Virus record (IMG/VR): IMGVR_UViG_3300023082_000007
Location: 1-36,171 of that record
DNA length: 36,171 nt
Reading direction: 5' to 3' (one strand)
From: a virus
Below the pieces are notes generated by a model that was not told the origin of the DNA, made no database searches, and was given only the letters and a program-made list of their open reading frames with translations. A program made the translations under genes and the position numbers. How positions within the stretch are numbered: position 1 is the stretch's first letter; every line of letters begins with the position of its first letter. Shown here in pieces: positions 2,258 to 36,171 of this stretch.

Positions 2258-2742
2258 TGAAGCACCACGAAAAGCGCGGGGAAAGTGACGATTGGTATAC
2301 GCCGAAATTTGTCTTTGAGGCGCTTGGCGTAGTCTTTGATATGGATGTTGCAGCGCCGATCGAGGGGCCGCGATATGTACCATGCAAAGAATGGATATTC
2401 GAAGACAGTTTATCTAAGCCATGGGGCGGCCTCGTCTGGATGAACCCGCCATTTGGCGGGAGATCTGACAAGGCCAAATGGTTGCGAAAATTCATAACCC
2501 ATGGGAACGGCCTTGCTCTGCTTCCAGACAGAACAAGCGCGCCATGGTGGCAGGAAATCGCGGACAAATGCGATGCCGTCTTGTTCTTCAATGGGAGAAT
2601 AAAGTTTGAGCGGCCAGACGGAACGATAGGAAATCGCCCCGGATCGGGCATGAACTTGCTGGCAATTGGCGAAACTGGATTTTCCGCCGTTTGCCGCGCT
2701 CACCGTTCCGGCATCGGAACAATGATGATACCCGTAAAGTGA
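2257..2742 (+). CDS. dam: Phage DNA N6-adenine methyltransferase (Dam family)
   Basis: A 161-residue enzyme of the phage Dam family that transfers methyl groups from S-adenosylmethionine to adenine N6. The family opening DDWYTPKFVFEALG (residues 11-24) is followed by FDMDVAA and the catalytic motif IV as NPPF (63-66, within WMNPPFGG). The length matches the family. ATG 2257 overlaps the upstream stop as TGATG; a GTG three bases earlier is also possible. GATC looks abundant in this genome (14 seen in the first 1.2 kb), so GATC is a reasonable target, but specificity cannot be read from the sequence. Likely roles are protection against host restriction, or strand marking around replication. Confidence 0.9.
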   Translation: MKHHEKRGESDDWYTPKFVFEALGVVFDMDVAAPIEGPRYVPCKEWIFEDSLSKPWGGLVWMNPPFGGRSDKAKWLRKFITHGNGLALLPDRTSAPWWQEIADKCDAVLFFNGRIKFERPDGTIGNRPGSGMNLLAIGETGFSAVCRAHRSGIGTMMIPVK

Positions 2743-3227
2743 AGGACGAATGGAAAATCGTTCCGACCATGCCAACACACGATATGATCGAGGCGGCGGC
2801 TATGTTGGTCGAGACAATGCCGAAAGGTTCCGAGGCGCGTAATAAACGCCTCGTTTCCGCCGTCTATCAGATGATGGTCGAACTTGCCCCGGCGTCAAGG
2901 AAGGGTGGCCTTCCGGTCAATCAGCAGCGCATCCATGAATTGATTTTCCAGTTCGTTCAAGAGCGAGGCTACCCGCCCACGTACCGGGAAATGGGAAAGC
3001 TCCTGGGCATGGCGCACATGAATGTTTTCCGTTGCGTCATGTCGATGAAGAAACGCGGCGTTCTGGAAATCCTGCACGGCAGTACGCGCGGCATCGTGTT
3101 GAAGCTTTTACCCGGCCAGCCTTTACCAAAAATTAAGCCGACGCGGCTATGGTCGGAAGTCCCACCACACGAAAGGAAAAAGATCCATGACGCGCGAAAG
3201 CTTGACCGCCCTGATCGCTTGGAATAG
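2739..3227 (+). CDS. LexA-type winged-helix DNA-binding protein
   Basis: A protein of about 162 residues with a central winged helix-turn-helix like the LexA N-terminal domain: IHELIFQFVQERGYPPTYRE, then MGKLLGMAHMNVFRCVMSM and KKRGVLEILHGSTRGIVL. The order HExIxxFxxxxGxPPTxxE, recognition helix, and a wing ending in GxxRGI is characteristic. No LexA peptidase domain (Ser/Lys dyad) follows, so self-cleavage is not expected. It probably regulates phage or host SOS-like promoters; the target is unknown. The start is uncertain: GTG 2739 overlaps the methyltransferase stop (GTGA), while ATG 2769 would remove ten residues outside the domain. The 3' end overlaps a small membrane-protein gene. Confidence 0.75.
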   Translation: MKDEWKIVPTMPTHDMIEAAAMLVETMPKGSEARNKRLVSAVYQMMVELAPASRKGGLPVNQQRIHELIFQFVQERGYPPTYREMGKLLGMAHMNVFRCVMSMKKRGVLEILHGSTRGIVLKLLPGQPLPKIKPTRLWSEVPPHERKKIHDARKLDRPDRLE

Positions 3228-28507: not shown

Positions 28508-29041
28508 TTAAATCGCCTGTGGTTTACGGATGAACATGTGATGCCACGCCTTAATGAGCATCATCTTTTCTCGTTTTGTGAGCACGTCCCACGGTTGACC
28601 GTGGATCAGGCCCGAGGGCAGGAAGTTGAGATCGTCGGGATCGAGCGAGGCGAACGCGCCGCCGTTTCCCTTGTCTGTTCCGAGTGGTTGCTGTTGGCGC
28701 TTCAGCTCGGTTTGTGCGAGCCGCCGGCCTGTTTTGGCCCACCAATGCGAGGCTTGCGCCATGGCGTCGTTTACCTTCATTCCGGTGTCGAAGACGCCAA
28801 AGCCGTTTTCGTCCATCCTGATCACGTCGTCGGCCAGCGATTTGATTGCCTCGATCGCCGGCACCTTGAACGACAAGAACAGCCCGCAATCGCAAAAAAA
28901 CTGTTCCTGAAATTCATGCGATTGCCTGGGTGTTTCATACCACGCGCCGCATTTGCAGCGGTTTTGCACCACGGCGGCGCTTTCGCGATGGACTTCGAAG
29001 CCGGCCTGTTGAGCCGGCGTCAGGGGCGTGAGCTTATCCAT
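28508..29041 (-). CDS. Hypothetical zinc-ribbon-like protein, 177 aa
   Basis: Two CxC pairs, RCKCGAWYE and FFCDCGLF, about 25 residues apart, can bind one zinc ion. A helical segment follows (AIEAIKSLADDVIRMDENG, ASHWWAKTGRRLAQTELKRQ) and a C-terminal TKREKMMLIKAWHHMFIRK. ATG 29041, inside the end of the upstream gene (8-base overlap), has GGAG nine bases upstream. Function unknown; nucleic-acid binding is possible. Confidence 0.65.
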   Translation of the reverse strand: MDKLTPLTPAQQAGFEVHRESAAVVQNRCKCGAWYETPRQSHEFQEQFFCDCGLFLSFKVPAIEAIKSLADDVIRMDENGFGVFDTGMKVNDAMAQASHWWAKTGRRLAQTELKRQQQPLGTDKGNGGAFASLDPDDLNFLPSGLIHGQPWDVLTKREKMMLIKAWHHMFIRKPQAI

Positions 29042-29252
29042 TGTTTTTTGCTCCACATTTCGCACAGCGCCACGCTACCGGGCCATTCATCGGATCGGTA
29101 ACCCAAGCATGTGTGCAAGGTTCTTCCGCTGCTTCCCGTTGCCGTGCCGCTGCCAATTGAGCGGCCATGATGCGCGCCGTTTCTTTGTCGAGCTTGCAGC
29201 GAGCCATAACAATTTCGATCGCGCGCGATGTTTTGATGAACATTTCAGCCAT
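29034..29252 (-). CDS. Small zinc-ribbon protein, 72 aa
   Basis: A helical N-terminus (RAIEIVMARCKLDKETARIM) joined to a C-terminal zinc ribbon with CTH and CAKC separated by a short beta turn (AWVTDPMNGPVAWR). ATG 29252 follows GAGGGAGAGGGG and overlaps the upstream stop by 8 bases. No family name can be given; small ribbons of this kind often bind DNA or RNA polymerase. Confidence 0.6.
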   Translation of the reverse strand: MAEMFIKTSRAIEIVMARCKLDKETARIMAAQLAAARQREAAEEPCTHAWVTDPMNGPVAWRCAKCGAKNNG

Positions 29253-29733
29253 CGGCGTTACCCCTCTCCCTCGGTTCGGGCGATGGGGCGGCGCGGGCGG
29301 CTTCGTGCCAATTCGGGTAGGTGGAAGTCGAGATGATCGCTGTGGCGCGCTCAACCAGACCCCTCGCGGCGATGTAGCCTTTCTGCATATCGAGCGCGAC
29401 TACTCGAAGCCTCGCGAGTTCGATTTGAGCCCATCGAGGAAGCGCCTGCTCTGCCACGACCTCCATCTGCGCCATGTCAGCGTCGGTTGGGTTGACGACT
29501 GAGAAGCCAGCGCCGATTTCAAGATCGCCTTCGGCTTTGGCGCGCCGCTCGAACCACTCCTTGTTGATGCCGTGCAGACCGCTCGTTGTCGGTTCGGGCG
29601 ATGGTGTTTCGGCCAAGGCGTCGAGATATGCCTTCACGACGGCTTTTGCGATCTGCTTGGCATCGCCGTCCGCCGATAGGAAGACAGCATCTACAGCAGC
29701 TTTGAGGGCCTTTGGGTTGAGATTGTCGCTCAT
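29245..29733 (-). CDS. Hypothetical protein, 162 aa
   Basis: Contains [23 protein letters not shown], similar to the short module found in many alphaproteobacterial phage hypotheticals (INxEWFERRAxxEGDxEIGAG), with helical segments before and after ([40 protein letters not shown]). The two Pro/Glu-rich stretches [10 protein letters not shown] and [10 protein letters not shown] may be linkers. It overlaps the dfrB homologue (ATGA) and the next gene. Function unknown. Confidence 0.6.
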
Positions 29734-29978
29734 AGCTCGCTGCCCTCCGTAGTGGCGGCAAGGGCGCTCTCCGGGTAAATCTGGACTGAGCCGGGTTCGC
29801 GATCACTCTCGACGCAATAGCCGACCGGCGTCAGCTCGGTGCTGTAGAAGCCGACGACGCGGCCATGCCAGGATGATCCTTTTGTTTTGCGGACTCGGTC
29901 ACCGAGGGCGAAGAAGGGCATGAACCCGCGATCTGTGCCTGCCGAAATTGGAACGGGTGTGGGTGTCTCGTTTTTCAT
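29730..29978 (-). CDS. dfrB: Type II dihydrofolate reductase homologue (R67/DfrB family)
   Basis: An 82-residue protein that aligns without gaps to plasmid R67 DHFR across the SH3-like core. [20 protein letters not shown] matches the R67 [20 protein letters not shown] region, [10 protein letters not shown] matches LTPEGYAVES, and PGSVQIYP is identical. The residues that form the single central active-site pore of the R67 tetramer are all kept: K31 (R67 K32), S64, V65, Q66, I67 and Y68 (R67 S65-Y69), as well as W37 (W38) and Y45 (Y46). The N-terminal 20 residues differ, as usual. R67 enzymes reduce dihydrofolate with NADPH and are not inhibited by trimethoprim. The gene is coupled to both neighbours by ATGA overlaps and follows GGAGGGAAAA. 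Homology is near certain; enzyme activity in the phage is inferred. Confidence 0.93.
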
Positions 29979-30154
29979 TTTTCCCTCCGATATTGGTCTA
30001 TGAAGCCGCCGGCAATCTTGTTTGCCAGGAAGCAGTAAAACAGGACCGTGGCGGCCACGACGATCCCGAAGCGGTTATGTGCAGCGTAGACCATGCACGC
30101 TTGCTGATAGGCCCATGCTGCACAAATCAGGTTGAACGCGGCCGCCTTGATCAT
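29975..30154 (-). CDS. Small membrane protein, 59 aa
   Basis: [20 protein letters not shown] is moderately hydrophobic and residues 31-45 ([15 protein letters not shown]) form a clear membrane helix, with a polar tail FIDQYRREK. Its ATG overlaps the previous stop (TGATG) and its stop overlaps the dfrB-homologue start. The continuous coupling shows it belongs to the same mRNA. Function unknown. Confidence 0.6.
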
Positions 30155-30366: not shown

Positions 30367-30988
30367 AATCGTGGTTCCTTTGCTGTGTCGCCTGGGTGAG
30401 AGGATCGCCAGGGGGAGGCGCGGCCCGCTGGTGAATTTTGGAGGGGCGGCCGCCAAACAATCGCGTGGCTTCCGCGTCCCTTGATGGGTGATAAATGCCC
30501 GGCCTTTCGGCTTCCTTGTCGATCACGCGGGCTTGACGGTGCGCAGCGAGCAATTCGCGCACGCGGGCTTTGCCGGCTTCGTCAACCTTTTCGACCACAG
30601 GAGGCCGCAGAGAGGCTTCAGTGTCGCGAAGCCGGGATATATCATCCACGATGCTTTGCGCCTCCTGCCGGGCGAGAGCGGCGATTTCTGCCGGTATCGG
30701 AATGAAATCGTAGGACTTGCGAGGATACAAACCTTGACCGAGTTTTTCAGTCGCGATCTTTAGGCCGCCATATGGCACGCTCATCAGCGCAAAAGTGTAA
30801 GCCTGCATTGCCTTGGAAGGCTCGATCGACGGAGGGAAGGCCATCCCGGATTTAGCCAGCAACATGATCCGCGCCGCGATCTGGTTATCCGATGGCGTTT
30901 CGAGCTGCCTAGCGAGATCTGTAATCTGATTTGCCAATGTCAATTGTTGGCCCGTCGTCGTCGTAGAAATTCGCCTGTTCTGATCCAT
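30299..30988 (-). CDS. Probable replication-associated protein, 229 aa
   Basis: It follows and overlaps (80 bases) the DUF1376 gene, the usual position of a replication partner or helicase-loader gene. The N-terminal half is helical (ITDLARQLETPSDNQIAARI, PYGGLKIATEKLGQGLYPRK, SYDFIPIPAEIAALAR), and the C-terminal half is disordered and basic. The segment with aromatic FALMSVPYGGLKIATEKLGQG resembles small replication proteins that choose IPxPAE-type helicase contacts; this is tentative. No Walker motif is present, so it is not a DnaC-type ATPase. Confidence 0.6.
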   Translation of the reverse strand: MDQNRRISTTTTGQQLTLANQITDLARQLETPSDNQIAARIMLLAKSGMAFPPSIEPSKAMQAYTFALMSVPYGGLKIATEKLGQGLYPRKSYDFIPIPAEIAALARQEAQSIVDDISRLRDTEASLRPPVVEKVDEAGKARVRELLAAHRQARVIDKEAERPGIYHPSRDAEATRLFGGRPSKIHQRAAPPPGDPLTQATQQRNHDYDDYPQERFESPHGSPDPGRFD

Positions 30989-31700
30989 TGCCGTTCACCC
31001 TTTTCTCAAATTCCGCCATCGTGGCTTGCTGATGTTCCCTGAAGGCACTCACCTTGCCGGGACTGCCGCGCGCCGGTTGCCGCTCGACCGCCGACCGAAC
31101 CCAATTGCGCCACGTCGCCGGCCAGTCGAGCTTGACACCTTTCGCCCCGGCGACGGCCAGCCAGTAATCCCGGAACTTTGCCGCCTCGACTAAGGCCCGC
31201 TCTGGACGAAGGCCGGCGGTCACGGCCGCATCGAGATCCGGCGCAAAATCTTCGGGAATGCGCGTCCCTTTTTTTGGCGACGAAGGAGCTTTTTTAGCTG
31301 TGTCAATGGAAATGGAAATGGAAGCAGCCGTGGAGCTGTGCTCCGGATCTGCGTTCGCTGGCACCACATCGTTTGTTTTCCGATACTTAGAGCGCGCACT
31401 TTCGGCGGCCTTCTTTGATCTGCCGCGAGCCTTTTCGAGTTCTTCTAGCAATCTTCCTTGCGTAATCCGATCGCCTTCGACCTTAAAAAACTCCATGACA
31501 GTTGGCTTGACCTTCAACCATTCGTTGCCCTTGGAACGGCAGAACCGAGCAAGCCGCGCGTCGTCATTCGGCAGGTATCCGCCGGCCCGCCACATGGCAA
31601 TCAGCAGCAAAAGATATGCGCCATTCTCAGCCATAGACAGGTGCGCCGTGTCGGCAATATATGCGTCCGTCCAGATCGTGAACCCAGGAAATTCAGCCAT
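30909..31700 (-). CDS. DUF1376 (YdaU-like) replication protein
   Basis: A 263-residue protein. Residues 1-95 are the DUF1376 domain: a short aromatic start, DAYIADTAHLSMAENGAYLL, then GGYLPNDDARLARFCRSKGN and a winged-helix-like end (ITQGRLLEELEKARGRSKKA). A low-complexity linker (about 120-140; SISISID and a PSSPKKG stretch) leads to a C-terminal domain with FRDYWLAVAGAKGVKLDWPATWRNW, as in phage replisome organisers. Such proteins are thought to bind the origin or load the helicase. Without a phage DNA polymerase, this phage probably recruits the host replisome here. The linker DNA carries the dispersed repeat also found at 24142. Confidence 0.8.
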   Translation of the reverse strand: MAEFPGFTIWTDAYIADTAHLSMAENGAYLLLLIAMWRAGGYLPNDDARLARFCRSKGNEWLKVKPTVMEFFKVEGDRITQGRLLEELEKARGRSKKAAESARSKYRKTNDVVPANADPEHSSTAASISISIDTAKKAPSSPKKGTRIPEDFAPDLDAAVTAGLRPERALVEAAKFRDYWLAVAGAKGVKLDWPATWRNWVRSAVERQPARGSPGKVSAFREHQQATMAEFEKRVNGNGSEQANFYDDDGPTIDIGKSDYRSR

Positions 31701-31750
31701 CGTTCTAACTTTCAGATGAGGGGAGGGAGGCCCGAAGGCCGCCCCGTTGT

Positions 31751-32188
31751 TCAGATCCGATTTGCCAAGGCTTCTTTGTCTTTGCCAGAAGCGCCGCCGC
31801 CGCCCATCGCCTCCCGATACGCCGGCTTTTCCCGGATCACGGCCGCGATCAGCATTTCGCGCACCATTTGCCCATGCGTCTTGCCAGTCGCTTTGCACAG
31901 CCATTCGAAAACGACCATGTGACGCGAAGGAATGACCAGAGGCATCAGCAGATGCACAAGCTCATCAACCGATTGCAGTTCGTCTGCGGCCGCTTTGCGC
32001 TGTTGAGCGATTTCGACCGTGGCGGCCGCTTCATCGTATGGATCAGCGACGGCCAGCTTGATTTGCGGGACGGCCGAGGGGTGGCGGAAGACAACTTCCG
32101 ACGCGTGCGGGACGGCACCGGCATTGCCGCCTGGGCGGCGGGTTTTACGCCGCCGCCTTTTCTTCTTCACCGGGAGATCGTCGGTCAA
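31751..32188 (-). CDS. Hypothetical basic protein, 145 aa (TTG start)
   Basis: Read from TTG 32188, which overlaps the previous stop as TTGA; no ATG is available near the start. It begins with a strongly basic stretch (KKKRRRRKTRRPGG) and has a C-terminal helical region (VDELVHLLMPLVIPSRHMVV, FEWLCKATGKTHGQMVREML) that resembles a ribbon-helix-helix or small DNA-binding fold. A nucleic-acid-binding function is likely but not specific. A short hairpin with a UUCG-type loop (31729-31740) follows its stop. Confidence 0.6.
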   Translation of the reverse strand: MTDDLPVKKKRRRRKTRRPGGNAGAVPHASEVVFRHPSAVPQIKLAVADPYDEAAATVEIAQQRKAAADELQSVDELVHLLMPLVIPSRHMVVFEWLCKATGKTHGQMVREMLIAAVIREKPAYREAMGGGGASGKDKEALANRI

Positions 32189-35928: not shown

Positions 35929-36171
35929 ATGAACGATTTTGTAGCGCAGATCCCGGAAGAAAAGATCATTGATCGGCCGGCTATGACGAAGGACGATCAC
36001 GCGGATGGCATCTACTTCCGCATGCCCGAGGAAGAATATCACGCCGACACGGCCATGGGTGCCAGCGGCATTTGCGATCTGCTTCAGTCGCCGCTCAAGT
36101 TCTACGAGAACAGCGCGTTCAACAAGAACCGCAACCGCGAAGAATTTGACGAAAAGGAAACGGCCGCCATC
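35929..36171 (+). CDS. RecE-like exonuclease (5' part; continues at base 1)
   Basis: The first 38 codons up to 36044, then the 127 bases that repeat the contig start. The protein begins MNDFVAQIPEEKIIDRPAMT and reads EEEYHADTAMGASGICDLLQ across the junction, the family's usual N-terminus. ATG 35929 has CCACAGCAACGGAG upstream, the recurring leader of this phage. See the entry at 1-916 for the catalytic residues. Confidence 0.85.
   Translation, partial: MNDFVAQIPEEKIIDRPAMTKDDHADGIYFRMPEEEYHADTAMGASGICDLLQSPLKFYENSAFNKNRNREEFDEKETAAI
36045..36171 (+). repeat. 127-bp terminal overlap identical to bases 1-127
   Basis: Every base of 36045-36171 equals 1-127, and the exonuclease frame continues without break. 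A length of 127 equals a common assembler k-mer, so this is most likely the circularisation overlap of a closed or circularly permuted genome rather than a biological terminal repeat. Unique length is 36,044 bp. Confidence 0.95.

Follow-up and report, generated by a model that had tools for sequence, protein, structure and literature searches.

The window, that is, the whole stretch of 36,171 nucleotides analysed here (IMG/VR record IMGVR_UViG_3300023082_000007), is a single complete virus record of a soil-type phage with about 36.0 kb of unique sequence. Bases 1-127 and 36045-36171 form an exact 127-bp direct terminal repeat, so that the record probably holds the whole genome, with a length of about 36,044 bp. 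The window encodes a terminase as well as portal-type head-tail, major head, tail and large internal virion proteins. Thus, the virus is a podovirus-like tailed phage. On the early side, a primosomal/replication-initiation protein, a Holliday-junction-resolvase-like protein and a pair of exonuclease VIII-like and Sak4-like proteins are encoded. A Dam-like adenine methyltransferase gene, adjoining a gene for a LexA-like DNA-binding protein (2254-2742 and 2691-3227), is also present on this side. No integrase was found among the window proteins scanned. Since the nearest relatives of the dfrB-like gene described below occur in Rhizobium phages and prophages, the host is likely to be of the rhizobial type.

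The dfrB-like (R67-like, PF06442) gene lies at 29730-29978 on the minus strand and encodes an 82-aa protein with a stand-alone SH3-like domain. Stop codons interrupt the plus strand at the same coordinates. The start codon is ATG, with a GGAGG Shine-Dalgarno sequence ahead of it (GGAGGG, 29983-29988, minus strand). The gene shares 4 bp (ATGA) with the gene on each side: directly upstream with that of a 59-aa probable membrane protein (29975-30154, minus strand) and directly downstream with that of a 162-aa protein (29245-29733, minus strand), for which only sub-threshold Pfam and PHROG matches were obtained. Thus, the dfrB-like gene belongs to a translationally coupled run. The same early gene run includes the gene of the primosomal/replication-initiation-like protein (30909-31904, minus strand; phrog_3992, E 3.9e-44). 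Integron or resistance-gene context is absent, and the gene sits in a phage early operon. The first-pass annotation had described an 82-residue reading frame in a coupled phage operon, surrounded by unknown genes and not by integron parts. The reading frame was recovered at exactly these coordinates, on the minus strand, and the 4-bp overlaps and the probably complete phage genome support the setting.

The protein matched Pfam PF06442 (DHFR_2, R67 dihydrofolate reductase) with E 4.6e-23 and 81.3 bits against a cut-off of 25. With the NCBIfam model trim_DfrB (NF000331), the match (E 5.6e-25, 87.1 bits) was under the resistance-DfrB cut-off of 137. In the phmmer comparison with PDB entry 1vie (E 2.6e-18), residues 22-74 were aligned with chain positions 7-59 without a gap, as had been proposed for the SH3-like core, and R67 structures were the only sequence matches in the PDB. 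The window protein has the same residue as R67 in 32 of 56 columns (57% identity). Ahead of the SH3-like domain, the window protein carries a 21-aa N-terminal extension unrelated to R67. The R67 residues K32, W38, Y46, T51, S65, V66, Q67, I68 and Y69 are identical in the window protein. K31, W37, Y45 and S64-V65-Q66-I67-Y68, which had been read as kept from the letters alone, are indeed the counterparts of R67 K32, W38, Y46 and residues 65-69. All catalytic-pore residues (R67 K32 and V66-Q67-I68-Y69) are therefore among those retained. The tetramer-interface residues W38 and Y46 (window W37 and Y45) are also kept and were invariant in 65 phage copies. Substitutions relative to R67 include W45 to F44, H62 to E61 and A36 to S35. 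The interface residue H62 is a feature of R67 and is not needed for PF06442 membership; at this position, 49 of the 65 phage copies have E, as in the window, and 10 have H.

A single-chain AlphaFold2 model, in which the alignment rows came from the window and the loci only, had a core pLDDT of 90-96 and a low-confidence N-terminus. With the predicted core, Foldseek gave seven PDB matches at E < 0.001, all of which were R67 (rmsd 0.9 A); weaker matches were to KOW, NusG, CAP-Gly and PetP domains. Between the window gene and 15 close relatives, pN/pS was 0.10-0.24, showing purifying selection. These values and the match of the predicted core show that the resemblance to R67 is not due to chance. 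Membership of the window protein in the DHFR_2 family is secure.

Conservation was analyzed in 65 non-redundant phage domains (< 85% identity). Positions 32, 38, 40, 44, 46, 54, 66, 67 and 70 were invariant. K32, V66 and Q67 were present in all copies, Y69 in 64 of 65 and I68 in 58 of 65. The mean entropy was 0.15 bits at the five pore positions versus 1.25 elsewhere (Mann-Whitney p 0.006). K33, which is exposed and adjoins the invariant K32, is variable (2.42 bits). Thus, the fold alone is not a sufficient cause of the pore conservation. Part of the domain set had been fetched by patterns containing VQ[IL]YP. In the 30 domains fetched without such patterns, K, V and Q were kept in 30 of 30, and among the copies found by an HMM in a rhizobial family, K32, W38, I68 and Y69 were present in all eight aligned and Q67 in seven, the eight including one Q67H and one V66A. 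Since these pattern-free sets also keep the pore residues, the conservation is not a search artefact. The pore entropy, the variable K33 and the pN/pS values indicate that selection maintains the pore, beyond the barrel alone. Relatives with an altered pore do occur (I68N in L074, Q67H in L169 and V66A in L170). L169, from a rhizobial-family genome, reads SVHIYP, the same Q67H change as in a laboratory R67 mutant. L074, on a viral contig, reads NSVQNYP and combines G64N with I68N.

The PF06442 domain was detected on 275 IMG/VR contigs by an alignment-based scan. With a pattern narrower than that scan, 45 distinct DfrB loci were found in a set of 84,980 species genomes from bacteria and archaea. 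By tblastn, 26 of 50,697 INPHARED phage records were positive, mostly Rhizobium and Sinorhizobium phages, and several of them already carry a dihydrofolate reductase annotation. At E = 10, the same 50,697 records yielded only one extra record, a doubtful one (E = 8). The HMM scan of 398 genomes of one rhizobial family gave nine matches, eight of them above cut-off. Fused or non-78-aa genome copies often lie among ORFs with phage-locus homologues (L116, L118, L113, L150 and L151), and the 78-aa Burkholderiales copies mostly have no such homologues around them. This pattern fits a family with two settings, one in phages and the other a chromosomal/integron lineage like that of PMC11662351. A Polynucleobacter MAG contig (L119) bears two DfrB domains within one 16-kb stretch.

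Among 64 non-redundant phage copies, 24 were stand-alone, and the domain was C-terminal in 24, N-terminal in eight and central in eight. The fused copies (40 of 64) are parts of unrelated larger proteins of up to 421 aa. In the phage protein L056 2045-2728, the DfrB domain is joined to a Lar-like zinc finger (E 2.4e-5, just below cut-off). L005 has a Lar-type fusion partner with a weaker match than L056, and the fused region of L020 is HNH-like, also by a weak match. MazG-type fusions seen by eye in L123 and L061 were sub-threshold or absent in Pfam and were rejected. No match to the Lar zinc finger (PF14354) was obtained among the window proteins scanned, namely the dfrB-like protein and its neighbours. 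Over its first 40 aa, the 29245-29733 protein shares 52.5% identity (E 1e-10) with the N-terminus of a 304-aa DfrB fusion protein in L113, a rhizobial phage or prophage. Thus, the same pieces are fused in the L113 genome and adjacent in the window.

The window is collinear with two sister phages, G444 and G445, whose capsid and terminase are 80-83% and 65-70% identical to its own; PF06442 was not found in either of them. One edge of the interval in question is the gene at 29975-30154, whose product has a 42% identical homologue in G445. The other edge is a gene for a 185-aa conserved protein (28508-29065, minus strand), with 46% identical homologues in both sisters. Between these edges, G445 carries other small genes. 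One of them, L257 11081-11692, occupies the dfrB slot and encodes a genuine Lar restriction-alleviation protein (E 5.9e-11, above cut-off). Since the sisters have no PF06442 domain and other genes are in the slot in G445, the contents of this slot vary and the window dfrB is an optional occupant of it.

The phylogenetic tree (107 domains, 60 columns) is based on a short alignment and is poorly resolved; its root is not fixed, and it gives no direction of transfer. The clinical DfrB and Burkholderiales copies formed one cluster (100/96) with the window copy outside. The nearest neighbours of this cluster were the phage or prophage copies PS-1, L096, L015 and L151, and three phage copies were placed inside it in the free tree. 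The window copy fell in the other, phage-dominated half, near the rhizobial copies. Two phage copies are nearest to R67: L090, 77% identical to R67 with an integrase nearby, and L091, which adjoins DNA ligase, polymerase and exonuclease genes. Both contexts were checked and are phage DNA. Forced monophyly of all 78-aa chromosomal and clinical DfrB was compatible with the data (p 0.25). The dS between the window copy and its nearest relatives ranged from 0.5 to saturated, and no near-identical integron copy of the window gene was found in the plasmid search.

An unnamed DfrB gene on Pseudomonas plasmids (L037 3959-4264 and L163 574-777) adjoins aadA1 in opposite orientation; in L037, arr-3 and intI1 are beside it as well. 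This gene is 68.6% identical to the window core and far from DfrB1-10, in the phage-dominated half of the tree. Two independent plasmid recruitments were considered and rejected as a conclusion, since the data are also compatible with one clade that unites it and the clinical genes (AU p 0.06).

The first-pass annotation had pointed to phages as a natural reservoir of R67-type genes. The distribution (275 contigs, 26 records and 45 loci) favors this idea for the family. However, Burkholderiales have been argued to be the original hosts, and their chromosomes have been documented as a source of the clinical genes outside integrons (PMC11662351). The window copy itself is not near the clinical clade in the tree, and its score is under the resistance-DfrB cut-off (87.1 versus 137 bits).

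A supply of nucleotides during infection had also been suggested. Among 54 DfrB-bearing phage or virus records, ThyA was present in eight and ThyX in one; a FolA-type DHFR was found in none of the 54, a figure that has no matched baseline. None of ThyA, ThyX and FolA was found in the window. A search for a conserved metabolic partner gene was also negative: the commonest neighbour families of the DfrB copies were integrases and HNH nucleases. Thus, DfrB has no consistent metabolic partner, the suggestion found no specific support, and a nucleotide-supply role of the window gene is weakly supported. Most DfrB carriers would depend on host ThyA for such a role. The carriers of both ThyA and DfrB are mainly larger phages (phiM9, Schitoviridae-type Rhizobium phages and ZX86), and their gene content is compatible with DfrB as their own DHFR. 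The records L011, L017, L028, L031 and L034, mostly rhizobial phages, have ThyA and DfrB without a FolA-type DHFR, and these phages are good candidates for using DfrB in this way.

Based on these results, the best explanation, which we hold with moderate confidence, is that the gene encodes a trimethoprim-insensitive, NADPH-dependent DHFR of the R67/DfrB family and is borne as an optional accessory gene. By analogy with R67, the SH3-like barrel would assemble into a D2 homotetramer with one central pore, in which NADPH and dihydrofolate would be bound next to each other. The charged tails of the substrates would be held by K31, at the mouth of the pore, and Q66-I67-Y68 would line the centre. 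The hydride would pass directly from NADPH to dihydrofolate, and trimethoprim would not be bound at the site. For a Vibrio-phage relative, DfrB-H4, activity in vivo has been reported, in that it gives E. coli trimethoprim resistance (PMC9835603); by the same analogy, the window protein would be tetrameric and quite probably an active, trimethoprim-insensitive DHFR. The change of VQIY to VQIL abolishes resistance in DfrB1 and DfrB-H5, and R67-type enzymes are slow, at about 1 per second (PMC9835603). As a weaker step, the phage might gain tetrahydrofolate regenerated during DNA synthesis together with the host thymidylate synthase. The chances that DHFR activity is also the purpose of the gene for the phage are about even.

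Of the other readings, the strongest is that of an accessory module for ligand binding with another natural reaction. The domain would be a tetramerising pore for a natural ligand or reaction other than dihydrofolate; phages would exchange it between accessory proteins with early effects on the host or against its defences, and the DHFR activity would be a by-product. Such a role is consistent with the fusions to many unrelated regions, including the Lar zinc finger (L056) and the HNH-like region (L020), with the genuine Lar gene in the same slot of G445, with the window neighbour bearing a module that is fused to DfrB in L113, and with the integrase and HNH genes as neighbours. However, the invariant residues are exactly those that R67 uses for NADPH and dihydrofolate, and distant fused homologues show DHFR activity with R67-like Km (PMC9835603). 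In addition, the window protein has no Lar domain, and there is no direct evidence for an anti-restriction role. We consider this rival rather unlikely.

A structural or nucleic-acid-binding module that has only the SH3-like fold in common with R67, without a functional pore, appears improbable. Although peptides or nucleic acids are the usual ligands of SH3-like folds (PMC9835603) and KOW, NusG, CAP-Gly and PetP domains gave weaker fold matches, the exposed pore residue K32 is invariant whereas K33 varies, Q67 and Y69 are conserved, and R67 structures are the sole matches at E < 0.001. It is still harder to regard the gene as a trimethoprim-resistance gene recently captured as cargo from an integron or plasmid, and we find this very improbable. 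It belongs to the same family as DfrB1-DfrB10, but its 57% identity to R67, its score under the NCBIfam resistance cut-off, the lack of integron parts, the different N-terminus, the grouping with rhizobial phage and prophage copies, the dS values and the lack of a near-identical integron copy in the plasmid search all argue against such an origin.

For the R67/DfrB enzymes no ancestral role is known, and since trimethoprim is a synthetic compound, it is an open matter where these enzymes came from (PMC9835603, PMC11662351); the endogenous function of the DfrB homologues was likewise stated to be unknown (PMC9835603). Phage DfrB homologues as such have been published already: homologues in Pseudomonas and Vibrio phage with K32, W38 and VQIY conserved (PMC9835603), eight dfrB candidates in lytic phages (PMC12466917) and dfrB2-like genes in virome contigs (PMC7265639). 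Our analysis adds that the family is widespread in viruses, that its pore residues are near-invariant, that the domain is shuffled and that, in a tree from a short alignment, the clinical clade stands beside phage lineages. As a tentative view, which we think has a rather small chance of being right, the R67/DfrB fold may be native to phages as a shuffled tetrameric pore module in early accessory genes, possibly for counter-defence instead of folate metabolism, and the clinical genes may be an escape from it. Escape from the phage pool perhaps happened more than once, giving the clinical clade and the unnamed Pseudomonas plasmid cassette. A phage family that is wide and has kept its pore unchanged offers a concrete and testable source of R67/DfrB enzymes, and it opens a route to the original DfrB function via phage genetics. 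When viromes are screened automatically for resistance genes, these phage dfrB-like genes will be flagged.

Compared with R67 and DfrB1-DfrB10, the window protein has the same gap-free SH3-like core with K32, W38, Y46 and S65-V66-Q67-I68-Y69 and a predicted fold within 0.9 A. In contrast, it is only 57% identical, has W45F, H62E, A36S and an unrelated N-terminus, is 82 rather than 78 aa long, is encoded in a phage operon instead of an integron, and scores under the NF000331 cut-off. DfrB-H3 (Pseudomonas phage) and DfrB-H4 (Vibrio phage) are likewise phage PF06442 domains with K32, W38 and VQIY. However, both are fused to extra domains, whereas the window domain is stand-alone; they would be about 167 and 218 aa long if they are the L033 and L030 proteins, as their DNA-methylase neighbours suggest. 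The Burkholderiales chromosomal dfrB (PMC11662351) shares the family and the non-integron context with the window gene, but has 78 aa and the clinical architecture and groups with the clinical genes in the tree. The Rhizobium and Sinorhizobium phages RHph_N3_2, RHph_TM3_3_3 and phiM9 (PHROG 31682) have cores 73-83% identical to that of the window protein. Their proteins are in public records, several of them annotated as DHFR. They differ from the window in belonging to different phage lineages and in being mostly fused proteins, although phiM9 has a stand-alone 67-aa DfrB copy plus ThyA.
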